NCBI GenBank assembly: GCA_035512495.1 | Contig: DATKDW010000019.1 | Coordinates: forward strand, 1-33,897 | DNA: 33,897 nucleotides | DNA from: Acidimicrobiales bacterium | GTDB taxonomy: Bacteria > Actinomycetota > Acidimicrobiia > Acidimicrobiales > CADCSY01 | Reading direction: 5' to 3' | Shown here: piece by piece, positions 1,099-31,925 of the stretch | Numbering within the stretch: the first letter of the stretch is position 1 | How the letters are laid out: each line of letters starts with the position of its first letter | Notes under the pieces: generated by a model | Database searches by the model: none | Told to the model about the DNA's origin: nothing | What the model saw: the letters and a program-made list of their open reading frames with translations, nothing else | Translations under genes and position numbers: made by a program

Positions 1099-2802
1099 TC
1101 AGCCCACCACCCGGCCGCGGTCGAGGACCACGACCCGGTCGGCCCGGGCCAGCACGTGAGGGCGGTGGCTGACCACGAGGGCGCTGCGCAGGCCGCCCCC
1201 GAGGAGCCGGTCCCACAACCTTCCCTCGGTCTCGATGTCGAGGGCGCTCGACAGGTCGTCGACCACCAGCAGCTCGCTGCGGCGCACCAGTGCCCGGGCG
1301 GCGCCCGCCCGCTGCACCTGACCGCCGGACAGGCGCACCCCGCGGGCGCCCACCACGGTGCGGACCCCGGCAGGCATGACCTCGATGTCCTCCTCGAGGC
1401 ACGCCAGGCGCAGCGCCTCCAGCAGGTCCTCCTCGGGCCAGCCGAGCAGCACGGTCTCGGCGAGGGGCTCACTGAAGAGCCGTGGCACCTGCGGCACGTA
1501 GGCCGCCCGGGGCGGGACGAGGAACGAGGAGGGATCCTCGACCGCCCGGCCGTTCCAGGTGATGCACCCGTCGTCGCTCGGGATGAGGCCGAGCATGGCC
1601 CGCAGCAGCGTCGACTTGCCGGACCCGACCGGGCCGGTCAGGACCACCAGCTCGCCGTGGCGCACCACCAGCCCCACGTCGCTGACGGCGGCGACCGCGC
1701 CGTGACGGACGGTCAGTCCCTCGACCCGCAGCTCCACGAGGCGCTCCCCGGAGGGGGTGGGCGCCGCCAGCGGCGGCGGGCCGTGACGGAGGTGGGTCAC
1801 CACCGGCGCCACCACCGCGTCGGCGTCGCCGTCGGGGCGCAGCTCGGCCAGGCGCGCCACCGAGACGTCGGCCTGGCGGTGGTAGGCGCCGAGGCGCCCG
1901 GCCCACCGGGGAAGGCCAGCGAGCACGGTGAGGTAGCTGGTGAAGAGCCCGAGCTCGCCGACGGTGAACTCCCCCGCACGGATGGCCGGGGCCACGAGGA
2001 GCAGCAACAGGCCGACACCTGCCTCGCCCGTGGCCCCCGACAGGGACTGCACCAGCTGGGTGCCCACCGCGTCGCGACGGGCGGCGACGGCCCGACGGGC
2101 GTTGATCTCGCGGAAGCGGATCGACACGCTCTCCTCGGCCGCCGCCGCCTTGACGGCCAGGACCGCCCCGAACGAGTCGCCGACGAACCCGGTGACCTCG
2201 GCCGTGGCCCGCCTGGCGTCCTGTCGCCAGGCGCGCAGCCGAGGCCCGAGCCACCGGGCCACCGTCAGGGCGGCGACGACGGGGATCACGACCGCCACCG
2301 TCACCCGGGCGTCGATGGTCGCCATGATCACCACGGCCGCTCCCCCGGCGATGGCCACCCCGGAGATGTCGAGCCACACGTCGAGCACCATGGCGAGGTC
2401 CTGGGTGTCATCCCGGAACCGGCTGACGGCCTCGCCCGAGGAACCCGGCAGCCGGCCCGAGGTCGCACCGGGGGCGCTGGTGAGCGAGTAGAGGAGGTTG
2501 ACTCGAGGCACCGTCTGCCAGCCGACGAACGCCCCGTGCCACTGCACCGCCGCGCTCACCAGCAGGAGCCAGCGGCCCAGCTCGAGGCCGCCGAGGACGG
2601 CCAGCACCGTCCACGGAGAGCCCACGGCGGCGTCGTCGGAGATGCGGTCGAGCACGACCTTGAACGCCCACCCGATGAGCAAGGGGATGGTGTGGAAGCC
2701 CACCCACTGCACCCAGCAGATGGCGTAGGCCGACGGGTCGCGCCGGATCAGCTCACGAGCCACCCGCATGGTCGTGCGGGGCGAGGCCGGTGGCGCCGTC
2801 AT
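1099..2802 (-). CDS. ABC exporter half-transporter, degenerate-site subunit
   Basis: A 567-residue fused membrane domain and ATPase of the type I exporter class. Membrane helices fill about residues 25-300 and the nucleotide-binding domain about 355-567. The domain has Walker A GPVGSGKST (390-398), a canonical LSGGQ signature (491-495), Walker B LLVVDD (511-516) and the switch His in SHRP (546). The residue after the Walker B Asp is Asp516, where the catalytic Glu is expected. The start overlaps the stop of the upstream partner by 4 nt, so the two are translationally coupled and very probably form a heterodimer. Substrate unknown: drug, lipid or peptide export are all possible. The protein is somewhat short at the C-terminus. 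Confidence 0.92.
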   Translation of the reverse strand: MTAPPASPRTTMRVARELIRRDPSAYAICWVQWVGFHTIPLLIGWAFKVVLDRISDDAAVGSPWTVLAVLGGLELGRWLLLVSAAVQWHGAFVGWQTVPRVNLLYSLTSAPGATSGRLPGSSGEAVSRFRDDTQDLAMVLDVWLDISGVAIAGGAAVVIMATIDARVTVAVVIPVVAALTVARWLGPRLRAWRQDARRATAEVTGFVGDSFGAVLAVKAAAAEESVSIRFREINARRAVAARRDAVGTQLVQSLSGATGEAGVGLLLLLVAPAIRAGEFTVGELGLFTSYLTVLAGLPRWAGRLGAYHRQADVSVARLAELRPDGDADAVVAPVVTHLRHGPPPLAAPTPSGERLVELRVEGLTVRHGAVAAVSDVGLVVRHGELVVLTGPVGSGKSTLLRAMLGLIPSDDGCITWNGRAVEDPSSFLVPPRAAYVPQVPRLFSEPLAETVLLGWPEEDLLEALRLACLEEDIEVMPAGVRTVVGARGVRLSGGQVQRAGAARALVRRSELLVVDDLSSALDIETEGRLWDRLLGGGLRSALVVSHRPHVLARADRVVVLDRGRVVG

Positions 2803-4583
2803 GATCCACCTCCACCGGGCGCCTCGGCGAGCAGCCCGGTGTGGGCTGCCTCGGACGCGCGCAGCAGGCGGGCGTAGCGCGTGGTGGGGTCGGCGGCGAG
2901 GCGGCTCCGCTCACCGTGCTCAACGAGGCGACCGCCGTCGAGCACCGCGATCTCGTCAACCTCCTCGAGGGTGGCCAGGCGGTGCGCCACGATGACCGCC
3001 GTGCGCCCCTCGAGCAGGCGGTGCATGGCGGCGGCCATGGTCGCCTCGGTGGCGGGGTCGAGGCGGCTCGACGCCTCGTCGAGGACGATGAGGTCGGGCT
3101 CGGCCAGGAACGCCCGGGCGAAGGCCAGCAGCTGCGCCTCCCCCGACGAGAGGCCGCCGGTGCCGGCGAGCTGGGTATCGATCCCCTCGGGGAGGCCGGC
3201 GAGCCACCCGCCCAGGCCGACCTCGCCGAGCACCTCGACGAGACGCTCGTCGGTGGCCGGCCATCGCCCGTAGAGGGTGAGGTTCTCCCGCACCGAGGCA
3301 CGCAGCAGCTCCACGTCCTGGGTCACCACCGCGATCCGTCGACGCAGGGCACCCAGCTGGAGGTCAGCCACGTCGACCCCGCCGACGCGCACCGTGCCCT
3401 CGGTGGCGTCCCAGAAGCGCAACAGCAGGCGCCCGAGGGTGGTCTTCCCGCTGCCGGTGCGTCCCACCACGCCGAGGTGGGTGCCGGGAGCGAGGTGGAG
3501 GTCGAGGTCCCGCACGGCCACGGTGCCCTCGGCATAGGTGAGGGTCACGCCCTCGAGGTCGACCGAGAGGGGCCCCGAGGGCAGCGCCTCGGGTCCGAGT
3601 GGGCCATCGACGAGGGTCCGCTCGGTGGCCAGGAGCCGCGCCGCCCTGGTGGCACCCGCCAGCGCCTTCTGGAGCTCGCGGAGCTGCTCGGCGATCCGCT
3701 CGAGCGGCTGGCGGAGGAGCTGGGCGTAGCGGAACAGGGCGAACACCGCCCCGAGGGTGATGATCCCTCGGTCGAGCAGGAGGATCCCCACCGCCAGAGT
3801 GGCCACCGAGCCGGCGGCGAAGGCGGTGGCCGACAGCGCGTAGGCGCTGTCGCCGTGGAGCGAGGCCCGGCGGGCGGTGCGCCACGAGCGGGCTGAGTTG
3901 GCCTGGAGGCGGTGCACGGCGTGGGGTCCGGCGCCGTTGGCCCGGATGTCCTCGAGGCCCCCGAGGCGCTCCTCGAGGTCGCCGTACAGGCGAGCGTTGG
4001 CCTCCCGCTCGGCGTCGTGGGCCGGGACAGCCGCCACCCGCAGCCGGATCATCACCGCCACCGCGAGCGCGGCGAAGACGGTGAGGGCGAGGCCGGCCCG
4101 CCAGTCGATGACCGTCGAGATCACCAGCACCCCGGCGACCAGGATGGCGTTGCCGATTACGTGCAGCACCACGTTGGAGAAGAACTGGGTCAGGGCCTCG
4201 ACGTCGCCGTCGATGCGCTCGATGAGCACCCCGGCGCTGTGGTCGCCGTGCCAGGCAAGCTCGAGGTGGAGGGCGTGGTCGGCCAGCTCCTCCCGCAGGC
4301 GGTTGCCCGCACGCCAGGCCAGGTGCACCGAGGCCCAGGTCACCGCCAGCTGGAGCACCTCGCCGAGCACGGCGAGCACCAGGTACGCCGCCGCCAGGGT
4401 GGTGAGGGCGCCGACCGGCCGGCCCGAGAGGGCGCCGTCGACGAAGCGGGCGAGGATCAGGGGCCCGGCCAGCGGCAGCAACATGGCCACCAGGAGCAGG
4501 GCGACCAGTGCCAGGACGCGACTCTGCTCCGGACGGAGGGTCGTCGCCAGGAGGCGCGACGCGGGTCGGGTGGTGGTCGCCAC
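2799..4583 (-). CDS. ABC exporter half-transporter, catalytic-site subunit
   Basis: A 594-residue type I exporter subunit. Membrane helices lie within residues 20-300 and the ATPase domain in about 340-594. Motifs are Walker A GRTGSGKTT (374-382), signature LSSGE (478-482, altered from LSGGQ), Walker B LIVLDE with the catalytic Glu503, and the switch His534. The start is a GTG. A TAGCAT box on the minus strand lies 9 nt before it, so the leader may be very short. It is first in a two-gene operon and its stop overlaps the next start by 4 nt. Its altered signature matches the altered Walker B of the partner, as in heterodimeric exporters with one dead ATP site. Confidence 0.93.
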   Translation of the reverse strand: MATTTRPASRLLATTLRPEQSRVLALVALLLVAMLLPLAGPLILARFVDGALSGRPVGALTTLAAAYLVLAVLGEVLQLAVTWASVHLAWRAGNRLREELADHALHLELAWHGDHSAGVLIERIDGDVEALTQFFSNVVLHVIGNAILVAGVLVISTVIDWRAGLALTVFAALAVAVMIRLRVAAVPAHDAEREANARLYGDLEERLGGLEDIRANGAGPHAVHRLQANSARSWRTARRASLHGDSAYALSATAFAAGSVATLAVGILLLDRGIITLGAVFALFRYAQLLRQPLERIAEQLRELQKALAGATRAARLLATERTLVDGPLGPEALPSGPLSVDLEGVTLTYAEGTVAVRDLDLHLAPGTHLGVVGRTGSGKTTLGRLLLRFWDATEGTVRVGGVDVADLQLGALRRRIAVVTQDVELLRASVRENLTLYGRWPATDERLVEVLGEVGLGGWLAGLPEGIDTQLAGTGGLSSGEAQLLAFARAFLAEPDLIVLDEASSRLDPATEATMAAAMHRLLEGRTAVIVAHRLATLEEVDEIAVLDGGRLVEHGERSRLAADPTTRYARLLRASEAAHTGLLAEAPGGGGS

Positions 4584-5034: not shown

Positions 5035-6720
5035 TCAGCCACCGCCCCCGGGTGAGGGGTACTCCGGTGGCCGCTCGTCGTCGGGGACCTCCTCCACCAC
5101 GGTGATGGTGCCCTCCTCGTCGAAGACCCACAGGTCGCCTTCCCACTCGTCGACGAGGAAGCGACGGCCGCCGTCGACGTAGCGGTACATCCCCCGGCCG
5201 GCCACACCGCCCTCGTCGACGCCCTCGGCGTCGGGGTCCCACCACAGCTCCACCATGTCGTCGATGCCCGCGAAGTCGGTGGTCGACCACCGGTGCTCGC
5301 CGTAGCTGACGCTGGGTTGGGTCACGGCGCGCGGGGTGGGCCCCATCAGGAACAGCCCGTCGCGGAAGGTGGTCGAGGTGAGCTGCGGCCCGGCGTGCTG
5401 GAGGCCGGTGAAGAACAGCGTCACCTGCGGGTGCAGGAGGAGGAGGGGCAGGGAGCCGTCCAACGCCGGCGGGGACCCGTGGAACCACTCGTACAGGTGA
5501 TGGGGAGGGTTGGCCTCGGGCCGGACCTGGGGCGGGAAGTAGCTGATCCCGAAGGCATGGCGCCACTGCTCCTGGTCGAAGGTGCGGGCGAAGGCGCTGG
5601 TGTCGATGAACGGCGAGCCGCCGAGGACCCACTCGGGGAACCACCCCTGCTTGGTCGCCTCCTGGGTGAAGGCCGGCAGCAGGATCGGATCGGCCTGCAC
5701 CAACACGGTGGTGACCCCGGACGACTGCATCCGGGTGACGGCGTTGGTGGCGAGCTCGGCCGCCCGCCCGAGGTCGAGCGGGTAGAGGATCGACTCGGCC
5801 AGGTCGACCCCCTCGTCGGCCAGCTCGTCGCGCAGCCGGTCCGCGCTGCGCTGGTCGCCGGGGCCCATGCCCAGCCCGAGGTGGCCGAACACGCGCTCCT
5901 CGCTGCGCAGCGCCTCACCGGCGTGCACCGCGTCGCCCCCGGCAAGCTTGCGCGACACGTACGCCACCAGGTGGGCCCGGACCTGGCCCCCCGAGGGCGG
6001 GATGGAGAACACCGTCGACGGATCCCCGACGCCGGCGCAGCCCACGCACACGACGTCGCGCGCCTGGAGCTCCTCGGCCCAGGCCGAGCCGATGACCGGC
6101 CCGCCGAGCACGGCGAACGCGCCCATGTCCTCCGCCGCCCGCACCGCATCGGCCCGCGCCGCGGTGCTGTCGAGGATCGAACCGGACGCCTCGACGAAGT
6201 CCAGGACCACACGACGCCCGTAGGTCTGGTAGGTCGCGTCGAAGACCTCGACGAAGCCGCGGTACACCTCCCGCAGCTCGGCGTTGGTGGCATCGAACCC
6301 GATGCGCTGCAACAGCAGGGCGCGCACCGGGTCGTCCTCTGCCGGGATCCACGCCACCACCTTGATCTCGGTGGCGGTCACCCCGGGCGCGGTGGCGCCA
6401 CCGTTGTCATCGACGTCGGCGAAGCACTCGGCGCGGAAGATGAAGGGGATGGCCACGCGCCCGCTCTCGGTGTCGCAGGTGTCGGGGAAGGTGACGTCGA
6501 GGCCCTGCTCCTGGGCCATCGACCACGAGATGGCCCCGTCGGGGCGCTCGGCCGGGCCGACCGCCCCCGGGCCGCCCCCGTCGTCGCCGCCTCCGGCGAG
6601 CAGACCCACCACGGCCACCCCGGCAACCACGGCCACCACCACGGCGATGGGGCCCCATCGGCGCAGCGCGCCCGGCCCCTCAGCAGCAGCCCCCTCTGTT
6701 CCTCGTGGCTCCACGCTCAC
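5035..6720 (-). CDS. Branched-chain-amino-acid-type ABC transporter substrate-binding protein
   Basis: A 561-residue extracellular solute-binding protein of the Leu/Ile/Val-binding (type 1 periplasmic fold) class. The N-terminus has a hydrophobic helix at about residues 24-45, then a Gly/Asp-rich linker. There is no Cys at the end of the helix, so it is probably membrane-anchored by that helix rather than a lipoprotein. The binding fold runs from about residue 113 (TEIKVVAW) to 520, with the typical GGPVIGSAWAEEL segment. It overlaps the stop of the four-domain permease/ATPase gene by 4 nt, which fixes it as the receptor of that importer. Ligand unknown: members bind amino acids, amides, urea or aromatic acids. 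Confidence 0.88.
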   Translation of the reverse strand: MSVEPRGTEGAAAEGPGALRRWGPIAVVVAVVAGVAVVGLLAGGGDDGGGPGAVGPAERPDGAISWSMAQEQGLDVTFPDTCDTESGRVAIPFIFRAECFADVDDNGGATAPGVTATEIKVVAWIPAEDDPVRALLLQRIGFDATNAELREVYRGFVEVFDATYQTYGRRVVLDFVEASGSILDSTAARADAVRAAEDMGAFAVLGGPVIGSAWAEELQARDVVCVGCAGVGDPSTVFSIPPSGGQVRAHLVAYVSRKLAGGDAVHAGEALRSEERVFGHLGLGMGPGDQRSADRLRDELADEGVDLAESILYPLDLGRAAELATNAVTRMQSSGVTTVLVQADPILLPAFTQEATKQGWFPEWVLGGSPFIDTSAFARTFDQEQWRHAFGISYFPPQVRPEANPPHHLYEWFHGSPPALDGSLPLLLLHPQVTLFFTGLQHAGPQLTSTTFRDGLFLMGPTPRAVTQPSVSYGEHRWSTTDFAGIDDMVELWWDPDAEGVDEGGVAGRGMYRYVDGGRRFLVDEWEGDLWVFDEEGTITVVEEVPDDERPPEYPSPGGGG

Positions 6721-9700
6721 CCTCCCGATGGGGCACCGGACCGCCGGATGGCGGCCTCCTCCGTGCCAAGGTACGACTCGACGACCACGGGGTCGCCGAG
6801 GACGGCGTCGGGGCGGCCGACCGCGATCACCCGCCCCTGGTCCATGGCGACCAGGCGGTCGGCGACCGCCTCGATCAGCGAGATGTCGTGCTCGATGACG
6901 ACCAGGCTGGCACCGGTCTCGTCACGCACGCGGCGGATGAGCGGCGCCAGCGCCTCTACCTCACGCTGGGCGATCCCCGCCGCCGGCTCGTCGAGGAGCA
7001 CCACGGAGGGCTGGTGGGCGAGCAGGCAGGCGAGGTCGACCACCCGGCGCGTCCCGGTGGACAGCTCGCCGACGAACGACGAGCGGTGATCACCGAGCCC
7101 CAGCAGCTCGACGAGCTCGGCGACCCGGCGGCTAACCGCCCGCTCGCTGTCCAGTGCGTTCGGCAGCCGGAAGGCGGCGGAGAGCGGGTCGCGCACCGCC
7201 ACCCAGCGCTCGCAGGCGGTGGCGACCGCCTCTTCGACCGACAACGAAGGGAAGAGGCGCGCGTCCTGGAAGGACCGGCCGAGGCCGCCCCGGGCGCGAG
7301 CCGAAGGCGACCAACGGGAGACGTCGCGGCCGCCGAGGCGGACAGACCCCCCGTCGGGCGTGGTGAAGCCGCTCACCAGGTCGAACACCGTGGTCTTGCC
7401 CGCGCCGTTGGGGCCGATGATGCCGAGGACCTCCCCGGGGCCGACCTCGAACGAGACCGACCGCACCGCGGCGACACCCTCGAACGACCGCGACAGCCTC
7501 ACCCCCTCGAGCGCCGGTGTGGCGTCGCCGGCCGGCGTGAGGTCCGAGGTGTCCACGGTGGCCGCGGTGTCCACGGTGGCCTCGGCCGGGACAGTCATCA
7601 CACCGGCCGGGGTGCTCGCATCGGCCGCACCGGGGCCGGCGCCGATCACCGAGGTGGCACCCCCGAGGAAGACCGACCGGAGCAGGTCCGGACGCTGGGC
7701 CAGCTCGTCCGTCGGCCCCGAGAAGCGGACCTGGCCACGCTCGAGGAACATCGCCCGGTCGGTGGCAGCGAGGGCCACCTCCACCGACTGCTCGACGAGG
7801 AGGACCGTCATCGACTCCCGCCGCAGCTGCTCCAGGGCCCGGAGCAGGCGTCCGACGACCTCGGGTGCCAGGCCGAGGGACAGCTCGTCGATCAGGAGCA
7901 GGCGCGGCCTGGTCAGCAGCGCCATGGCGAGCCCCAGCATCTGCTGCTCGCCGCCGGAGAGCGAGCCCGCCCGCTGGCCGGCGCGCCCGGTCAGGACGGG
8001 GAAGAGCTCGTCCACCTGGGTCCGAGCTTCCTCGAGGTCGCCGGGCCGGCGCCGGTGCAGCCAGCCGGCCACCCGCAGGTTCTCGGCGACGGTGAGCGAC
8101 GGGAACACCCCAGACCCCCCGGGCACCTGGGCCATGCCGAGCGCCACACGAGCATGCGCGGGGAGGCGCGTGATGTCGCGACCGTCGAGCACCACCGTTC
8201 CCGCGGTGGTGGGGACCACCCCCGACACGGCGCGAAGCAAGGTGGACTTGCCGGCCCCGTTGGTGCCGAGGAGGGCGACGGCCTCGCCCTCCTCCACGAT
8301 GACGTCGACCCCGAAGAGGATCTGCACCGGCCCGTAGGAGACGTCGAGCCCCTCCACCGCGAGGAGGCCGGCAGTCGTCGGGACCTCCCCTCGGTCGTCT
8401 TCCCCACGCAGCGGCGCTCCGTCCGACGGTGTCACGTCGTCCTCGGCCACGGGACCGACGGTGGTGCCGTGGCGCGCCGCCAAACGCCGCAGGAGCGCGT
8501 CTCGCCCGGCGAAGGGGAGCGTCGCCAGCCCGCCGGGGACCAACCAGAGCACCAGCAGGACCCCCACCCCCGACGCCAGGACCCGCAGCTCTGCTGGCAG
8601 GAACCACTGGGCGCCGAGCAGGAACCCGGCGCCCAACACCGCGCCGGTCACCGAGGTGAGGCCGCCGATCACGACCATGGTGAACACCGCGAGGTTCTGC
8701 ACGGGGGCGTAGGTCGTGGCGTCGAAGGCCTGCTGGTGGTGGATGAACAGCCCGCCGGCGAGAGCGGCGATGCCACCCGAGAGGGCGAAGGTGGCGACCC
8801 GGAGGGTGGCCGGACGGATCCCGTACGACTGGGCGGCACGGTCGTTGTCTCGGAGGGCGACCATCGCCCGCCCTGCCCGGCTGGTGCGGATCCCACGCAC
8901 CCCGAGACCGACGATGACGAGGACTGCCAGCACCAGGCCGTAGACCTCGGTGGGCGTGGCGACCTCGAAGCCACCGAGCAGCGGTGCCCGCTCGACGCGC
9001 CCGCTCGGGACCCACTCGAAGCGGTTGCGGTCGAGGAGGTAGGAGGTGGTCGCCAGCGAGAACGCAAAGGTGGTGACGGCGAGGGTGAGGCCACGCACCC
9101 GACTCGCCGGCACCCCGACCACCACCGCCGCCGCCGCGCCGGCCAGCGAGGCCACCACCAGGCCCGCCACGAGGTCGGCGCCGTGAGTGCCCGTGACCCA
9201 CCCGCAGACCGCCGCGCCGATGGCGAAGAAGGCCACCTGACCGAGCGAGACGTGGCCGCCCCACCCCGAGAGCACCACCAGCGAGAGCCCCAGCAGGGCA
9301 TAGACCAACAGGGCAGAAGCCCGCAGCGAGCGATCGACGGAGACCACGTGGGGCACGACCGCGGCAGCCGCCACGACGGTGACGAGCGCGAGGCGGCGAC
9401 CCCACCGCACCACCGGGAGGTGGGCCAGCGCTGACGGCACCCCACGGACCTCGTCGGCTGCCCGCCACGCCGTGTCGTCCCCGGCCCCGTCCCCCGAGGT
9501 GCCACCCCGCTGCAGCAGCAGGGCGACGACGACGATCACCCCGAGGACGGGGTCCACCAGCGCCACCGAGTGGTCCCAGGCGATGCCAAGCTCCAGCACG
9601 CCCAGCGCCACCGCGGCGGTGGTGACCGTCACCAGGTTCGTCATCCGCCCGATCACGAGGGCGACGAGGGCTCGCAGGAGGACGCTGAAGCCGAGGACGC

Positions 9701-10493
9701 TGTCGGCGGGGAGACCGAGGATGCCGCCCCGGAGGAAGACGGTGACGAAGGCGAGCCCCGCCGCCGTCGCCCACACGATCGTGCGCAGGCGGTGGACGGG
9801 GACGCCGAGCAGCGCTGCGCGGTCGCCGTCGTCGGCGCTGGCCCGGATGGCGACGCCGGCAGCGCTGCGCCGCAGCAGCGTCGCCACCGCCACCACGACC
9901 AGCGGGGTCAGCACCAGGGCGAGGAGGTCGTTGGCGTCGAAGACCACACCGCCGAGGCGGACCGTGACCTCGAACGGCGGGTCGATGCGATCGGAGACCA
10001 GCCGCCGGCCCCACAGCCGAGGGACGAGGAGCGCCACGGCGGTGAGGACCTGGCTGAGCCCGATGGTGGCGATGGTGACGAGCAACCTGGGCGACCGGGA
10101 GAACCGGCGGATCACGAGCCGCTCGGTCGCGCCACCCAGGGCGATGGCGGCGACCAGGCCGGCGACGACCGCCACCGGCCACGGCATGCCGACCTCGTCG
10201 ATCAGGAGGTAGGCGAGCACAGCCGGAGCGAAGCCCAGGTCTGCCTGGGCGAAGTTGATGATCCGGTCGGAGCGGTGGACGAGGGCCATCCCGAGGGCGA
10301 TGAGAGCGGTGAGGCCACCCACGATCACCCCGCGGAGCACGATGCCCGACGGCGCCGGGAACACCACCTGCTGGACCAGGACGATCGCCACCGCCGGGCC
10401 GAGGGCGGTGATCAGGCGGCGCGACGGCGAGGGGCGGGCCCGACCGACGCCGGCACCCCCCGGTCCACCCCCATCGGTGGCTGCCTCGCTCAC
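6717..10493 (-). CDS. Four-domain ABC importer fusion: LivH-LivM-LivF-LivG type
   Basis: One 1258-residue protein carries all the membrane and ATPase parts of a branched-chain-amino-acid-type importer. Residues about 25-330 are a LivH-type permease (start of the NFAQADL motif near 80) and about 365-670 a LivM-type permease (GWGGHVSLGQVAFFAIG near 410). A LivF-type ATPase spans about 708-945, with Walker A GTNGAGKS 743-750, LSGGE 845-849 and LLLIDE 865-870. A LivG-type ATPase spans about 995-1243, with GPNGAGKT 1027-1034, an altered signature LSTGT 1144-1148 and VVLLDE 1164-1169. The linker between the ATPases contains a tandem VDT-x3 repeat (DNA repeat 7551-7563 and 7569-7581). The start is a GTG at 10493. 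Usually these are four separate genes. No frameshift or internal start is needed to read it as one chain. Confidence 0.93.
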   Translation of the reverse strand: MSEAATDGGGPGGAGVGRARPSPSRRLITALGPAVAIVLVQQVVFPAPSGIVLRGVIVGGLTALIALGMALVHRSDRIINFAQADLGFAPAVLAYLLIDEVGMPWPVAVVAGLVAAIALGGATERLVIRRFSRSPRLLVTIATIGLSQVLTAVALLVPRLWGRRLVSDRIDPPFEVTVRLGGVVFDANDLLALVLTPLVVVAVATLLRRSAAGVAIRASADDGDRAALLGVPVHRLRTIVWATAAGLAFVTVFLRGGILGLPADSVLGFSVLLRALVALVIGRMTNLVTVTTAAVALGVLELGIAWDHSVALVDPVLGVIVVVALLLQRGGTSGDGAGDDTAWRAADEVRGVPSALAHLPVVRWGRRLALVTVVAAAAVVPHVVSVDRSLRASALLVYALLGLSLVVLSGWGGHVSLGQVAFFAIGAAVCGWVTGTHGADLVAGLVVASLAGAAAAVVVGVPASRVRGLTLAVTTFAFSLATTSYLLDRNRFEWVPSGRVERAPLLGGFEVATPTEVYGLVLAVLVIVGLGVRGIRTSRAGRAMVALRDNDRAAQSYGIRPATLRVATFALSGGIAALAGGLFIHHQQAFDATTYAPVQNLAVFTMVVIGGLTSVTGAVLGAGFLLGAQWFLPAELRVLASGVGVLLVLWLVPGGLATLPFAGRDALLRRLAARHGTTVGPVAEDDVTPSDGAPLRGEDDRGEVPTTAGLLAVEGLDVSYGPVQILFGVDVIVEEGEAVALLGTNGAGKSTLLRAVSGVVPTTAGTVVLDGRDITRLPAHARVALGMAQVPGGSGVFPSLTVAENLRVAGWLHRRRPGDLEEARTQVDELFPVLTGRAGQRAGSLSGGEQQMLGLAMALLTRPRLLLIDELSLGLAPEVVGRLLRALEQLRRESMTVLLVEQSVEVALAATDRAMFLERGQVRFSGPTDELAQRPDLLRSVFLGGATSVIGAGPGAADASTPAGVMTVPAEATVDTAATVDTSDLTPAGDATPALEGVRLSRSFEGVAAVRSVSFEVGPGEVLGIIGPNGAGKTTVFDLVSGFTTPDGGSVRLGGRDVSRWSPSARARGGLGRSFQDARLFPSLSVEEAVATACERWVAVRDPLSAAFRLPNALDSERAVSRRVAELVELLGLGDHRSSFVGELSTGTRRVVDLACLLAHQPSVVLLDEPAAGIAQREVEALAPLIRRVRDETGASLVVIEHDISLIEAVADRLVAMDQGRVIAVGRPDAVLGDPVVVESYLGTEEAAIRRSGAPSGG

Positions 10494-10971: not shown

Positions 10972-13128
10972 CTAGGGGTCCCCCTCCGGGCCTGAGGTCT
11001 CGCCGTCGCTGGTGCTGGCGCCGTCGCCCGTCGGGGCCGTCGTGGTGGTGGTCGAGCTCGTCGTGGTGGTGGTGGTCGAGCTCGTCGTGGTGGTGGTCGA
11101 GCTCGTCGTGGTCGTGGTCGAGCTCGTCGTGGTCGACGAGGTGGTGGTCGTCTCCTCGGTGGTGGTCGTCTCCTCCGGCTCGGTGGGCGGCGGGGCCTGG
11201 GTCGGCGGGGTCAGCTCCTCGGCTCGGGGCGCGCTGAACTCGCCCGTGTCGACCCCCTCCACGGCCTCGGCCATGAAGCGCTGCCAGATCTCGGCGGGGA
11301 GGCCGCCACCCGTGATCGGCCTTCCGTCCACAGGTTCCATCGGTCGCTGCCCCTCGTCACCGTGACCCAACCAGACCGCGGCGCCGAGCGCGGGGGTGTA
11401 GCCGACGAACCAGGCGTTGGTGTTGTCCTGCGTGGTGCCGGTCTTTCCTGCTGCAGGGCGCCCGATGGCGGCCGCCCGCCCCGTACCGCCGGTGATGACC
11501 CGCTGGAGGACGTGGTTGATGAGGTCAGCCCGCTCGGGGCGCATGACCTGCGCCGAGTCGGGGTCGACGGTGTGGATGACCCTGCCGTCGGCCTCGGTCA
11601 CCTGCTCCACGTACCAAGGGGTCACGCGCGTGCCACGGCGGGCGTAGGTCATGAACGCGCTCGCCATGTCGAGGGGTGAGACCTCCTCGGTCCCGAGGGC
11701 GATGGCGGGGAACGGGTCGAGCTCGGCCGTGACCCCCATGGCGTTGGCGGCGTCGGCGACGGCCTGCGGGCCGGTGAGGGCGACGAGCTGGGCGTAGACG
11801 GTGTTGACCGACCGCGCCGTGGCGGCGGTGAGGTCCATGGGCGCGAACGCCTCGTCGCCGTAGTTGCCCACCTCGAACAGCTGGCCCTCGACGTCGACCT
11901 CGATCTCCCGCGGCGCCTCGAAGACCTGGGTCACCGGTATGCCGGCGTCGAGCGCCGCCTGGAGGACGAACGGCTTGAAGGTCGATCCTGGCTGGCGGCC
12001 CTGGCTGCCGCCCTCGGCGCCGAGTGCGAGGTTCACGTTGCTGGCCTGGAAGTCCCGACCGCCGATCATGGCGACGATGGCGCCGCGATGGTCCACGGCG
12101 ACCAGTGCGCCGTCGGGGCCGTCGGGGTTCCCGAGCGTCTCGAAGACCGCTCGCTCTGCCGCCGCCTGGAGCCTGGGGTCGAGCGCGGTGTGGATGACGA
12201 GCCCCCCGCCGAAGGCGAGCCCCTCTCCGTACGTGGCGACCGCCCAGCTCCTGACGTGATCGGCGTAGTAGGCCGTGGAGCCCTTGAGTACGGCGCGCTC
12301 GTCCTTGCGGGTCACCGCCCCGATGGGCGCGGCGGCCGCTGCATCGGCCTCCTCCTCGGTGATCGTGCCCACGCTCACCATGGCGCCCAGGACCGTAGCC
12401 CGGCGCTGCTCCGCCGCCTCGGGCTCCCTGGTCGGGTCGGCCAGCTCGGGCGAGCGGAGGAGGCCCACGAGCAGCGCCGACTGGCCGAGGTCGAGCTCGT
12501 CGGCGGAGATGCCGAAGTAGGCCTTGGCCGCCGCCTCGACGCCGTAGGCGCCCCGGCCGAAGTACACGGTGTTGAGGTAGCGCTCGAGGATGGCGTCCTT
12601 GCTGAGCTCCCGCTCGACCTTGATCGCCAGCACCGCTTCGCGAACCTTCCGGGTGAGGCTGCGCTCCGAGGTGAGGTAGGCGTTCTTCACCAGCTGTTGG
12701 GTGATCGTGGAGCCACCCTGGAGATCACCGCCGCGCAGGTCGACCAGGAGGGCTCGGGTGATCCCGATCGGATCGATCCCGCTGTGCGAGCGGAACGAAC
12801 GGTCCTCGGCGGCGATGAGGGCGTCGACCATGACCGGCGCCACCTCGTCGAGACGGACGTCGACGCGGTTCTCGACGTCGAACAGCTGGCTGATCACGTT
12901 GCCCTCGGTGTCCACGATCACGCTCGTCTGGGCCCGGGGCGGCTCGCTCGGGAGGCGCACCGATGCGTACGCCACCACGAAGAGGACCACGAGGAGCACC
13001 AGCACCGCTGCGACGAAGATCCCGAGCCTGAGCAGCCATCGCTTCCAGTCGGCAGCGACCCATCGCCGGAACCTGTCGGCTCGAGCCTGGTCGGACACGG
13101 CCGCGGTGCTGCTCACAGCCATCACCAT
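10972..13128 (-). CDS. Bifunctional class A penicillin-binding protein
   Basis: A 718-residue cell-wall synthase that polymerises and cross-links peptidoglycan at the outer face of the membrane. There is a cytoplasmic N-terminus and one membrane helix at about 33-55. The GT51 glycosyltransferase domain covers about 75-255, with catalytic Glu108 in AAEDRSF and GGSTITQQLVKN at 138-149. The transpeptidase domain covers about 335-610, with SxxK S382-T-F-K385, SxN S440-V-N442 and KTG 562-564. After about residue 625 comes a Pro/Glu and then Thr/Ser-rich tail of some 90 residues. The frame is open 114 codons further upstream, but that stretch overlaps the STAS gene and is Arg-rich, so the ATG at 13128 (or 13122) is preferred; the ribosome site is weak. 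Confidence 0.95.
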   Translation of the reverse strand: MVMAVSSTAAVSDQARADRFRRWVAADWKRWLLRLGIFVAAVLVLLVVLFVVAYASVRLPSEPPRAQTSVIVDTEGNVISQLFDVENRVDVRLDEVAPVMVDALIAAEDRSFRSHSGIDPIGITRALLVDLRGGDLQGGSTITQQLVKNAYLTSERSLTRKVREAVLAIKVERELSKDAILERYLNTVYFGRGAYGVEAAAKAYFGISADELDLGQSALLVGLLRSPELADPTREPEAAEQRRATVLGAMVSVGTITEEEADAAAAAPIGAVTRKDERAVLKGSTAYYADHVRSWAVATYGEGLAFGGGLVIHTALDPRLQAAAERAVFETLGNPDGPDGALVAVDHRGAIVAMIGGRDFQASNVNLALGAEGGSQGRQPGSTFKPFVLQAALDAGIPVTQVFEAPREIEVDVEGQLFEVGNYGDEAFAPMDLTAATARSVNTVYAQLVALTGPQAVADAANAMGVTAELDPFPAIALGTEEVSPLDMASAFMTYARRGTRVTPWYVEQVTEADGRVIHTVDPDSAQVMRPERADLINHVLQRVITGGTGRAAAIGRPAAGKTGTTQDNTNAWFVGYTPALGAAVWLGHGDEGQRPMEPVDGRPITGGGLPAEIWQRFMAEAVEGVDTGEFSAPRAEELTPPTQAPPPTEPEETTTTEETTTTSSTTTSSTTTTTSSTTTTTSSTTTTTTSSTTTTTAPTGDGASTSDGETSGPEGDP
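11041..11170. repeat. Short imperfect tandem repeat coding the Thr/Ser tail
   Basis: The unit GTCGAGCTCGTCGTGG plus GGT triplets recurs about four times. Read on the minus strand it codes runs of 3-6 Thr broken by Ser-Ser in the tail of the penicillin-binding protein. Such repeats change copy number easily, so tail length may vary between strains. Confidence 0.75.
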
Positions 13129-13331
13129 CCCCACCGCGCTCCGTGAGACAAACTCCCGGGACGGTGGACTAGTCCCGTCTACCCCCCCGACGAAATGGCA
13201 CGTTCTGGCCATGGACGCCCGGTTCGGACCGGTGGAAGGGTGGTGGTGTGCACCTGTTGTCGACATCGCCCGCCTTGGACGAACGCGAACGATACGCGCG
13301 GCACACCCGGCCACGAGCACGAAGGGGCGCC

Positions 13332-13649
13332 ATGACGACCACCATGTCGACCGACCCCGGAGGGACGGCGACCATCGCCGTCGACGGCGACCTCGATGCC
13401 CGCGCCGCGCTCGATGTGGGGATCCTCGTCGGCCTGGCGGAGGTGCCCAGCCTGCGCCTCGACGTGTCATCGGTCGGCCGAGTCCATGCCGACGGCCTGA
13501 GCACCCTGATGGTCGTGATGCGCAGGGCGCACCGCAGCGGCTGCGACGTCAGCATCTACGGCGCCCGTCCGGCGGTCGCACTGGTGCTCTCGACCACGGG
13601 GATCCTCGCGCCCCAGGGCGAAGAGGGCGGCCCAGCGGCGACCGCCTGA
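13332..13649 (+). CDS. STAS-domain protein (anti-sigma antagonist-like)
   Basis: A 105-residue single STAS domain, the fold of SpoIIAA-type anti-sigma-factor antagonists. The pattern is an early beta strand with VDGDLDARAAL (residues about 18-28), then LRLDVSSVGRVHADGLSTL (about 43-61) and a C-terminal helix. In classical members the phosphorylated Ser lies in a D-S-S/T-G motif. Here the matching segment is HADG, with no Ser, so phosphorylation control at that site looks lost. The start is the ATG at 13332, preceded by AAGGGG 5-6 nt upstream. No partner anti-sigma gene is adjacent. It is divergent from the penicillin-binding protein gene and convergent with the response regulator. Confidence 0.75.
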   Translation: MTTTMSTDPGGTATIAVDGDLDARAALDVGILVGLAEVPSLRLDVSSVGRVHADGLSTLMVVMRRAHRSGCDVSIYGARPAVALVLSTTGILAPQGEEGGPAATA

Positions 13650-16975: not shown

Positions 16976-18469
16976 ATGAAGCGTGAAGTGGTGACGGGGT
17001 ACTGCTGGCCGCAGTCGACAGTCGCGGGTGAGCAGGTCGGCCTGCACCTGTCGTCGTCCGGTGGACGGCCGGTGCAGGTGGAGGTGGCACGGGTCGGTGC
17101 ACGGCGCGAGGTCGTGCACCGGTCCGACGCGGTGGCCGCCGACGAGCACGAGACGCCGAAGGATGCTGCGTCGAAGGGCTGCCGCTGGCCCGTCGCGCTC
17201 ACGCTCGACGTCGACCCGACGTGGCGGTCCGGTTACTACGAGGTCGTCATGGAGATCGACATCGGCGAGAAGGTGCGGCGGGACCACGCCTTCTTCGTCG
17301 TGCGCCCGTCGTCCGAGGCGAAGATCGTGATCGCGCTCGCCACCAACACGTGGCACGCCTACAACGACTTCGGGGGGCCGAACCTGTACACGGGCGGCAC
17401 CCACGTGGCCATGCAGCGACCGATGGCGGCGGGCTACCTCCACAAGCCGCCGGGCAAGGGCCGCCGGGTGACGGGCACCGGCGCCCCCGACCCCCAGAAC
17501 GCCGCCCACGTCGGCTACCTCCAGCTCAACCACCTTTCGGGCTATGCGGGGTCAGCCGGTTGGCCCGACTGGGAGCTGCCGTTCATCGAGTGGGCCGAGC
17601 GTGAGGGGTTTGAGGTCGGTGTGTGCACCAACGCCGACCTCGAGGACCACCCAGAGGTCCTGGACGGCGCCAGCCTCTACCTGTCGGTCGGCCACGACGA
17701 GTACTGGTCGCGCGGGATGCGCGACACGGTCGAGGCGTTCATCGCCGGTGGGGGCAACGCCGCGTTCTTCTCGGGCAACACGTCGTTGTGGCAGGTGCGC
17801 ATCGAGGGTGACGACCGTGACGTGATGGTCGGGTACAAGGGCTTCTTCAACGACGACCCCGTGATGGGGAGCGACCGGGAGCCCGAGGCAACGACCTTCT
17901 GGTCCGACGTGGTCGTCGGGCGCCCCGAGAACCACATGACCGGCGTGACGTTCACCCGCGGCGGCTACCACCGCATCGGCCGCAACGTGACCCAAGGCCT
18001 CGGTGGCTACACCGTGCACCGCGCCGGCCACTGGATCTTCGACGGCACAGGGCTCGGCTACGGCGACGTGCTCGGTGCCGGGGCCACCGTCGTCGGCTAC
18101 GAGTGCGACGGGTGCGTGTTCACCTATCGAGACGGGCTGCCGTACCCGACCGGCGAGGACGGCACCCCGCCGACCTTCGAGATCCTCGGCACCTGCCCGA
18201 CGCAGCACTTCACGCGCGAGACCGCACCTCGCCCGCCCAAGCCGGGCCAGCCGAGCGAGCTGGAGTACATCGCGTCACGGGTCTTCGGGACGCGTGCGCC
18301 CGAGGCGATGGAGCGCATCCGCCACGGACACGCCGTCCTCGGTGCCTACACGAACGATGCAGGCGCCACCGTGCTCACGTCCGGGTCGACCGACTGGGCC
18401 CACGGGCTGGCGGGACGAGACCCGCAGATCGAGCAGATCACCCGCAACGTGCTCACCCGCCTGGGGTAG
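16976..18469 (+). CDS. N,N-dimethylformamidase large-subunit-like protein
   Basis: A 497-residue soluble protein. From about residue 100 it matches the large (beta) subunit family of N,N-dimethylformamidase, an iron enzyme that hydrolyses dimethylformamide. Hallmarks are the ALATNTWHAYNDFGG block (about 114-128), the Asn/Tyr-rich NHLSGYAG, the highly conserved VGHDEYWSRGMR (about 237-248) and GNAAFFSGN. Residues 1-100 form a beta-rich N-terminal domain. The known enzyme is larger and works with a small subunit; no small-subunit gene is seen here, so the substrate may differ. Tyr and Glu ligands of the iron cannot be assigned by eye, apart from the probable Tyr in DEYWS. It stands alone, with its own promoter. 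Confidence 0.8.
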   Translation: MKREVVTGYCWPQSTVAGEQVGLHLSSSGGRPVQVEVARVGARREVVHRSDAVAADEHETPKDAASKGCRWPVALTLDVDPTWRSGYYEVVMEIDIGEKVRRDHAFFVVRPSSEAKIVIALATNTWHAYNDFGGPNLYTGGTHVAMQRPMAAGYLHKPPGKGRRVTGTGAPDPQNAAHVGYLQLNHLSGYAGSAGWPDWELPFIEWAEREGFEVGVCTNADLEDHPEVLDGASLYLSVGHDEYWSRGMRDTVEAFIAGGGNAAFFSGNTSLWQVRIEGDDRDVMVGYKGFFNDDPVMGSDREPEATTFWSDVVVGRPENHMTGVTFTRGGYHRIGRNVTQGLGGYTVHRAGHWIFDGTGLGYGDVLGAGATVVGYECDGCVFTYRDGLPYPTGEDGTPPTFEILGTCPTQHFTRETAPRPPKPGQPSELEYIASRVFGTRAPEAMERIRHGHAVLGAYTNDAGATVLTSGSTDWAHGLAGRDPQIEQITRNVLTRLG

Positions 18470-30256: not shown

Positions 30257-30413
30257 CACTTCAGCTCACAGTGCCTATCCCGCAACGGCCGGCTCATTCC
30301 GCTCGCCGGTAGCCACCATCCGGTAGGCATGCGACGACCCGGGAACGGTCGGGAGTCAGCCGGGACCGGACCAGGAGTCGTTCACAGAGCACCCACCGCG
30401 GGAGGATGTGCAC

Positions 30414-31925
30414 ATGACCGATAACCCCTGGCAGGGCGATGCCTGCTCGCTCGTCGACGCCTTCCGCGCCGGCGAGCGCTCGCCGGTCGAGGAGCTTGAG
30501 GCCACCCTCGCCGCGATCGAGGCCTCCGACCTCAACTGCTTCTCCCACGTCGACCCCGAGCGCGCCCGCGCTGCCGCGGCGACGGCGGACCTGTCGTTGC
30601 CCTTCGGCGGCGTGCCCACCGCGATCAAGGAGCTCGACCCGGTCGAGGGATGGCCGTGGACGGAGGCATCACTCGTCTACAAGGACCGCATCGCGAGTTA
30701 CACGTCGCACCAGACGCAGCGACTCTTCGAGCGGGGTGGCGTCGTGCCCGTGGGCAAGACGACGGCGAGCGAGTTCGGCGGCCTCAACGTCAGCGTGAGC
30801 AAGATCAACGGCGTCACCCACAACCCATGGCGCCACGGTCGCACCTGTGGCGGCTCCTCGAGCGGCTCCGCGGCTGCGGTGTCCGGTGGTCTGGTCAGCC
30901 TGGCCGCCGGCGGCGACGGCGGCGGTTCGATCCGCATCCCGGCCGCGTACACCGGCCTCCTCGGCATGAAGGGCACCTTCGGGCGCATTCCCCGCGGGCC
31001 CCACGCGTTCATGCGACCGAACACGGTGGTGCTCGGCAACTTGTCGCGCTCAGTGCGCGACGCCGCCCGCTACTACGACGTGTGTGCCGGCACCCACCTC
31101 TATGACCCGTCCAGCCTGCCGTCGCACGGTCGGTGGGAGGCAGGGCTGGGATCGAGTGACCTCAAGGGTCTCCGCGTCGCGATCGTGCCGGCCCTGGGCG
31201 GGGCCACCCTCGAGCCTGGGGTCGAGGACCGCATCCGGACCGAGGCGAAGCAGCTCATCGCGGATGGCGGCATGGTGGAGGTGGATGTCTCCGTCGAGCC
31301 GCCCAACCTGGCTGCCCAGTGGATGATGGGCAACCTGGCGACGCTCCTTGCCGATCTCGGCGATGCCTGGCCGCACTGCTCCGGTGATCTCACCGATGAG
31401 GTGGCCGTGGGCCTGCACCTCGCCGAGGCGATGTACAACCTGCGGACAGCCGCTGTCGCCGAGGAGCTGCGCATCCAGGCCAACGAGGTGATGGCGCGTG
31501 CCTTCGAGCAGGCCGACCTCATCATCGCCGCTACGAACCCGGGCCCTGCGTTCGCTGCGGAGGCGTCGACGAGCAACGAGCAGGTCCCGATCATCGACAA
31601 GCTGTTCTCCGCCGGTCCTGCGCGCTACGCCGTCCGAGCCCTCCTGGGCGCCGTGCGGGTCGTGGCCGGTGCCGCGCCCAAGCTCCCGTCCACAGTGCTC
31701 GGCCATGCCGAGGCGCGCTTGCCAGACCTCGTGAACATGGGCGCCCTCACGATCATCGCCAACCTCTACGGCAACCCGGCGGTGTCGATCCCGGCCGGCA
31801 CCCTCGACGGTCTCCCGGTGGGCATGCAGGTGCTGGCTGCCCACCACCGCGACGAGCTGCTCTTCGACGTCGCTCTCGCCGTCGAGCGCGAGCGCCCCTG
31901 GCCGCTGGTGGCACCCGGCGCGTGA
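30414..31925 (+). CDS. Amidase signature family hydrolase
   Basis: A 503-residue amidase that hydrolyses a carbon-nitrogen bond of an amide. The Ser-cisSer-Lys triad is visible: Lys in PTAIKELDP (about residue 72), the Gly/Ser block RTCGGSSSGSAAAV (about 144-157) and nucleophile Ser in GGDGGGSIRIPAA (about 166-178). The length is typical for the family. Substrate is unknown; the family also covers GatA-like proteins, but no gatB or gatC lies here. ATG at 30414 is preferred over GTG at 30408 because GGAGG sits 8 nt before the ATG. It is probably transcribed alone, with 157 nt upstream free of genes. Confidence 0.92.
   Translation: MTDNPWQGDACSLVDAFRAGERSPVEELEATLAAIEASDLNCFSHVDPERARAAAATADLSLPFGGVPTAIKELDPVEGWPWTEASLVYKDRIASYTSHQTQRLFERGGVVPVGKTTASEFGGLNVSVSKINGVTHNPWRHGRTCGGSSSGSAAAVSGGLVSLAAGGDGGGSIRIPAAYTGLLGMKGTFGRIPRGPHAFMRPNTVVLGNLSRSVRDAARYYDVCAGTHLYDPSSLPSHGRWEAGLGSSDLKGLRVAIVPALGGATLEPGVEDRIRTEAKQLIADGGMVEVDVSVEPPNLAAQWMMGNLATLLADLGDAWPHCSGDLTDEVAVGLHLAEAMYNLRTAAVAEELRIQANEVMARAFEQADLIIAATNPGPAFAAEASTSNEQVPIIDKLFSAGPARYAVRALLGAVRVVAGAAPKLPSTVLGHAEARLPDLVNMGALTIIANLYGNPAVSIPAGTLDGLPVGMQVLAAHHRDELLFDVALAVERERPWPLVAPGA

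Follow-up and report, generated by a model that had tools for sequence, protein, structure and literature searches.

The E. coli importer LivFGHM-LivJ/K, a member of the HAAT family (TC 3.A.1.4), is encoded by five separate genes, and its binding proteins are soluble and periplasmic. Fused NBDs are relatively rare in prokaryotic importers, and one degenerate site is reported for RbsA and NupO, according to PMC11466899. The window (the whole stretch of 33,897 nucleotides analyzed here, from an Acidimicrobiales bacterium, an actinobacterium of soil type) encodes a single protein that carries both permease and both ATPase domains of the Liv (branched-chain amino acid) type. Its sequence and predicted structure make it quite likely that this protein is the complete membrane and ATPase core of a Liv/HAAT-type ABC importer as one chain, with unequal ATP sites. 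We conclude that the one-chain Liv core is real, and that this variation on a known machine is shared widely. We found no paper describing a LivHMFG or an MFS-LivFG fusion in the open-licence part of PubMed Central, outside of which such work may exist.

One gene encodes four importer domains

The core gene lies on the minus strand, from 10493 down to 6717, a strand that an earlier note on this DNA did not give. That note described four domains in one frame in the order LivH-LivM-LivF-LivG; its coordinates are exact, and the order is supported by NCBIfam and an alignment of homologs. The binding protein follows as a second gene. The features are:

6717..10493, minus strand: putative fused LivH-LivM-LivF-LivG importer core; 1258 aa, GTG start, TGA stop
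9489..10373, minus strand: LivH-type permease domain, residues 41-335; BPD_transp_2, UrtB/LivH models, predicted helices
8484..9389, minus strand: LivM-type permease domain, residues 369-670; BPD_transp_2, UrtC/LivM models, predicted helices
8370..8483, minus strand: M-F linker, residues 671-708; length and sequence vary among relatives
7644..8369, minus strand: LivF-type ATPase domain, residues 709-950; UrtE model, motifs, fold of 1ji0
LivF-half motifs: Walker A 743-751, Gly792 at the Q-loop position, LSGGE 845-849, Asp869-Glu870, Gln902 at the H-switch position
7515..7643, minus strand: F-G linker, residues 951-993; hypervariable
6720..7514, minus strand: LivG-type ATPase domain, residues 994-1258
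LivG-half motifs: Walker A, Gln1076, LSTGT 1144-1148, Glu1169, His1202, BCA_ABC_TP_C 1221-1246
5035..6720, minus strand: binding protein, 561 aa; its start codon overlaps the core stop in a shared GTGA (4 nt)

Pfam detects two ABC_tran and two BPD_transp_2 stretches in the core protein (E 3e-58 and 2e-43). BPD_transp_2 (PF02653) reaches 148.8 bits against a cut-off of 26.8 in two places, and the LivG C-terminal motif BCA_ABC_TP_C (PF12399) is matched at 28.0 bits (cut-off 25.5). In NCBIfam, UrtB/LivH-like and UrtC/LivM-like permeases precede two ATPases, one LivF/UrtE-like (711-933) and one LivG/UrtD-like (998-1244). The LivF equivalog model stays under its cut-off (250.4 of 441), as does that of LivG (285.4 of 362). 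Promoter and terminator patterns were not found, a result that is weakly informative in a high-GC genome.

The two ATP sites are probably unequal

The signatures LSGGE (845-849) in the LivF half and LSTGT (1144-1148) in the LivG half are both present. The earlier note called LSTGT an altered signature; we reject the idea that it is a change private to this protein. A motif census finds LSTG in at least 39 of 41 LivG halves of four-domain relatives, with a varying letter after it, and the signature of E. coli LivG is LAYGD. LSTGT is thus a clade-wide LivG trait. The further suggestion that the two ATP sites may be unequal gains support, mainly from two positions in the LivF half that the note missed, Gly792 and Gln902. 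These changes are more telling than LSTGT. Gly occupies the LivF-half Q-loop position in 40 of 41 HMFG rows, in 58/58 MFS-F-G rows and in 16/16 F-G rows, and Gln the H-switch position in 41/41, 58/58 and 16/16, respectively. E. coli LivF has Glu at the Q-loop position and Gln at the H-switch.

ABC NBDs generally pair head to tail, the Walker motifs of one half facing the signature of the other. By this rule the LivF Walker motifs would face the LivG signature, which places all deviations (Gly792 and Gln902 of LivF, LSTGT of LivG) in one composite site. The other predicted site, formed by Gln1076, Glu1169 and His1202 of LivG with LSGGE of LivF, appears intact, and the LivG half of HMFG proteins keeps both the Gln and the His (41/41 each). 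The catalytic Glu870 of the LivF half is invariant in 21/21 proteins, with no loss of the glutamate at the degenerate site, which therefore need not be dead. A one-chain core with one intact ATP site would allow each domain and each site to be mutated singly in one gene.

Fusion states change within one clade

The source genome has 22 BPD_transp_2 matches, which we read as eleven systems. One is the HMFG protein of the window, and four pair a LivHM frame with an MFS-LivF-LivG gene (contigs C6, C70, C81 and C58). In one, LivHM goes with LivFG (C62), and in another with a LivG-LivF fusion (C15); three have separate ATPase genes (C82, C42 and C93), and one is cut by a contig end (C81). Fusions of the LivHM and LivFG type thus occur in six other systems of this genome. 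The premise of the earlier note that importers normally assemble from separate chains needs correction for this clade, in which HM and FG are usually already fused pairwise.

Two loci show further arrangements. On C15, a LivHM frame is accompanied by an ATPase fusion of inverted order, LivG-LivF (L167:8169-10052). Tandem genes of the four-domain type, each with a binding-protein frame, occur at L147:1585-5928 and 7289-10369, the second being cut by a contig end.

A tree of the joined F and G domains was computed for 122 rows, with SH-aLRT support only and no root direction; it leaves out rows that have >80% of their 5-letter words in common with a retained row, as well as incomplete MFG, HMF, FF and GF frames. 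All fused forms fall into one clade (support 98), in which the HMFG label needs 6 changes; well-supported branches require no fewer than 4 of these. The single fused clade and the repeated label changes indicate an old, non-unique four-domain gene and a fusion state that has changed repeatedly. Gain and loss of fusion are not distinguishable from the tree. The clade shows four-gene, two-gene and one-gene states, with and without MFS, so that the effects of fusion can be compared among close relatives.

Sister systems carry a major facilitator carrier

The MFS-LivF-LivG genes of the source genome lie at L161:1764-4865 (C6), L162:5650-10026 (C70), L163:4611-9473 (C81) and L166:4030-8406 (C58), and further ones occur at L095-L109 and other loci. 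PF07690 (MFS) is matched in 21/21 aligned members, and the MFS part, ahead of LivF, is full and spinster-like with 12 helices. The predicted structure of the L161 protein (pLDDT 81.5, pTM 0.71, with the MFS part at ~90) contains a single continuous helix, 417-464, that leads from the MFS into LivF. In structure comparison it matches human SPNS1 (Z 39.4, 409 residues, rmsd 3.2 Å) and SPNS2 (Z 38.4) best, while 6e8j and EfpA are the best solved matches by sequence. Among 100 class genomes, MFS-F-G is found in 20 (in G053 as two pieces of one frame) and MFS-LivF alone in 8 more, a count in which several rows show one stop within the aligned stretch.

A different split, MFS-LivF plus LivH-LivM-LivG, is seen at L152, L153, L159 and L160; at a fifth locus of this kind, L158, the MFS was not detected. 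Together the five form one clade (support 99).

The MFS hybrid is a stranger object than the window protein, and it raises the question of whether coupling between an ABC ATPase pair and a major facilitator carrier is possible. It may be, although we rate this as rather unlikely, that the Liv core in this clade is an extendable one-chain machine whose M-F slot holds either a short linker or a spinster-like MFS carrier, with the window protein as the minimal version. If so, the LivF/LivG pair of the MFS form would be linked mechanically to two distinct translocation routes, and an MFS carrier could be driven or gated by ATP.

The same sisters suggest a history for the window core, namely that it lost a fifth module when an MFS between M and F was deleted from an ancestor with LivHM and MFS-LivF-LivG; its substrate or mechanism may then follow those of the MFS-bearing sisters. 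The gene order is colinear, H-M and then MFS-F-G, with an overlap between the LivHM and MFS-LivF-LivG genes of exactly 4 nt in 36/40 loci, and two HMFG rows (L023 and L024) adjoin the MFS-F-G row L161 (support 99). However, the nearest rows of the window protein are themselves HMFG, in a group of 6 HMFG rows with a support of only 80. Some deep HMFG rows lack an MFS altogether, and the direction of change cannot be read from the tree. We hold such a loss to be possible but improbable.

Predicted structure and linkers

An AlphaFold model of residues 41-1240, built on 21 sequences, forms a single coherent core with a mean pLDDT of 80 and a pTM of 0.78. Low confidence is confined to the N-terminus, a portion of the H-M junction and the two linkers M-F and F-G, with pLDDT <50 at model positions 640-667 (M-F linker) and 899-950 (F-G linker). 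The LivF half aligns with Thermotoga 1ji0 (Z 33.2, structure alignment), and both NBDs align jointly with the fused NBD chain DppD (8wdb_D; Z 26.1, 468 residues), at an rmsd of 5.3 Å that leaves the open or closed state unfixed. The earlier note had proposed a structure prediction to see whether the linkers allow the normal pseudo-dimer; the pTM of 0.78 and the joint alignment of the NBDs on DppD indicate that they do.

A sequence search of the permease half against solved structures gave no matches, so its membrane fold rests on the model. In the VIA-align comparison, NBD matches fill the list and no permease fold is among the matches listed.

The H326-M381 span measures 52-56 aa in 21/21 rows, and the between-anchor spans of the same 21 rows are 48-75 aa for M-F and 27-61 aa for F-G. 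The near-constant H-M span against the variable M-F and F-G spans suggests that H and M act as one permease unit to which the ATPases are tethered.

Loose linkers could also be sites of processing, the chain being made whole and then cut at both of them into separate HM, F and G chains. The low confidence of the M-F and F-G linkers in the model and their hypervariable sequences are consistent with such cleavage. Yet linker sequences vary from relative to relative and the alignment shows no cleavage motif that is conserved, and F and G stay fused in the sister systems. We consider cleavage very unlikely and favor a core that works as one chain.

Binding protein and gene neighborhood

The earlier note described the binding protein as a coupled second gene, and the 4-nt overlap (GTGA) supports this coupling. 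The Peripla_BP_6 match of the protein in Pfam is weak (28.9 bits, where the cut-off is 31.7), and a sequence search against solved structures gave no match better than E 0.7. It has a hydrophobic N-terminal anchor in which a lipobox Cys is not visible. Binding-protein genes adjoin the HMFG frames of relatives in 18 cases, 11 upstream and 7 downstream. All 18 proteins have a hydrophobic N-terminal stretch, and a crude pattern search found a lipobox in none of them. Judging from these sequences, the binding protein is likely membrane-anchored rather than lipid-anchored.

Other genes of the window include a PBP1A-type penicillin-binding protein (10972-13470) with its C-terminal end inside a repeated Thr/Ser-codon-rich stretch, a dimethylformamidase-beta-like protein (16976-18469, PF20254) and an amidase (30408-31925, PF01425). 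The latter two possibly hint at amide use and are unlinked to the importer. Two adjoining MsbA-type ABC exporter half-transporters are encoded at 1099-4583, ~450 bp downstream of the binding-protein gene.

Proposed working of the importer

We propose that the two permease halves together form the pathway, and that F and G close beneath them as a head-to-tail pseudo-dimer. The membrane-anchored binding protein would hand over a small solute from outside, by default for the family an amino acid, an amide or a similar small solute. The canonical site (LivG Walker A/B, Gln1076 and His1202 with LivF LSGGE) should hydrolyze ATP. The degenerate site (LivF Walker A/B, Gly792 and Gln902 with LivG LSTGT) probably mostly binds ATP, although it retains Glu870. 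The H-M junction, near-constant in length, would be structural, and the M-F and F-G linkers would serve as loose tethers. Fusion would give each core exactly one copy of each of the four domains H, M, F and G.

An exporter, or a complex without a transport function, that merely uses Liv-type domains appears highly improbable. The MsbA-type pair lies nearby, and LptB models also score on the core protein. The two BPD_transp_2 permease domains and the coupled binding-protein gene argue against this reading, however, and the neighboring exporter genes own membrane domains of their own and begin only past the binding-protein gene. An importer core remains the reading that we prefer.

Relatives share the frame, which is under purifying selection

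The same four-domain frame is present in 20 other aligned loci, whose proteins are 39-72% identical to that of the window. Frames were checked in 22 loci, of which 21 (the window protein included) have all four domains, and in the remaining one (L075) LivG is absent from the frame. Because 21 aligned proteins span all four domains, the frame is neither a product of chance nor of a hidden frameshift.

A protein search finds one-frame full-length matches in at least 8 of 40 relative genomes, its own included (G000, G003, G004, G007, G014, G029, G030 and G038). Surveys of 296 genomes each give at least 14 genomes with such a match in the class, its own included, and at least 3 in the phylum, one of which (G356) lies outside the class; these counts are lower bounds, as few candidates were scored per genome. 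Among the best 80 of 590 candidate stretches in genome_contigs, 23 have H-M-F-G in one frame, and the records of these 23 all bear names of Actinomycetota groups or simply 'bacterium'. The search for four-domain homologs that the earlier note proposed thus returns full-length relatives. One of the 23 is the complete genome record of Aquihabitans sp. G128 (L091).

The nearest relative, L022, is 72% identical and lies on the same contig as L092, in an Acidimicrobiales record, which suggests an uncultured actinobacterium of the Acidimicrobiia type as the source of the window. Codon-position mismatches between the two genes are 0.20/0.16/0.44, an excess at the third position that points to purifying selection on the protein in the core frame. 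Identity to L022 is 70-82% in the domains, 38% in the M-F linker and 37% in the F-G linker.

The notion that the long frame arose as an artefact of assembly or sequencing, masking stops or frameshifts between four ordinary genes has virtually no probability left: the source assembly does have 97 contigs, and high-GC DNA readily yields long open frames (here shadow frames of 909 aa on the plus and 1162 aa on the minus strand), but the 20 other loci, the complete Aquihabitans record and the third-position excess of substitutions refute it through independent relatives and codon statistics.

A single scan of viral_contigs found no relative of the core protein, and a phage or viral origin is accordingly rejected. 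In plasmids (tblastn), 3201 of 72,556 records match, none with one place spanning 80% of the query.

Comparison with known systems

The window core resembles E. coli LivFGHM-LivJ/K in its domain types and coupled binding protein, and shares with LivFGHM the H-switch Gln of LivF and a non-canonical LivG signature. The differences lie in the one gene that replaces separate ones, in LivF, where E. coli has a Q-loop Glu and DEP and the window core Gly and DEL, and in a binding protein that appears to be anchored.

Compared with the urea importer UrtABCDE, the LivF half scores above the cut-off of the UrtE model (312.4 against 285.8 bits) and the core just misses that of UrtD (295.1 against a cut-off of 304.1), whereas UrtB and UrtC are far from reached (83.1 against 250.3 and 72.1 against 296.2). 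Urt membership is rejected, as only UrtE of the four models is over its cut-off.

Importers with a one-chain NBD pair are the top Foldseek matches of the core. Like M. tuberculosis DppD and OppD (8wdb, 8j5q) and B. subtilis RbsA and NupO, it has two NBDs fused head to tail; the permeases of those systems are separate proteins, whereas here permeases and NBDs share one chain. P-glycoprotein and its kin likewise carry the whole core in one chain, and their NBD pair can be aligned with that of the window core. Their order, however, is TMD-NBD-TMD-NBD with an exporter fold, unlike the TMD-TMD-NBD-NBD order with Liv-type permeases found here. The MFS-bearing sisters of the same genome (L161, L162, L163 and L166) share the F and G motifs and the clade of the window core, but are encoded by two genes with a spinster-like MFS before LivF, where the window core is a single gene.
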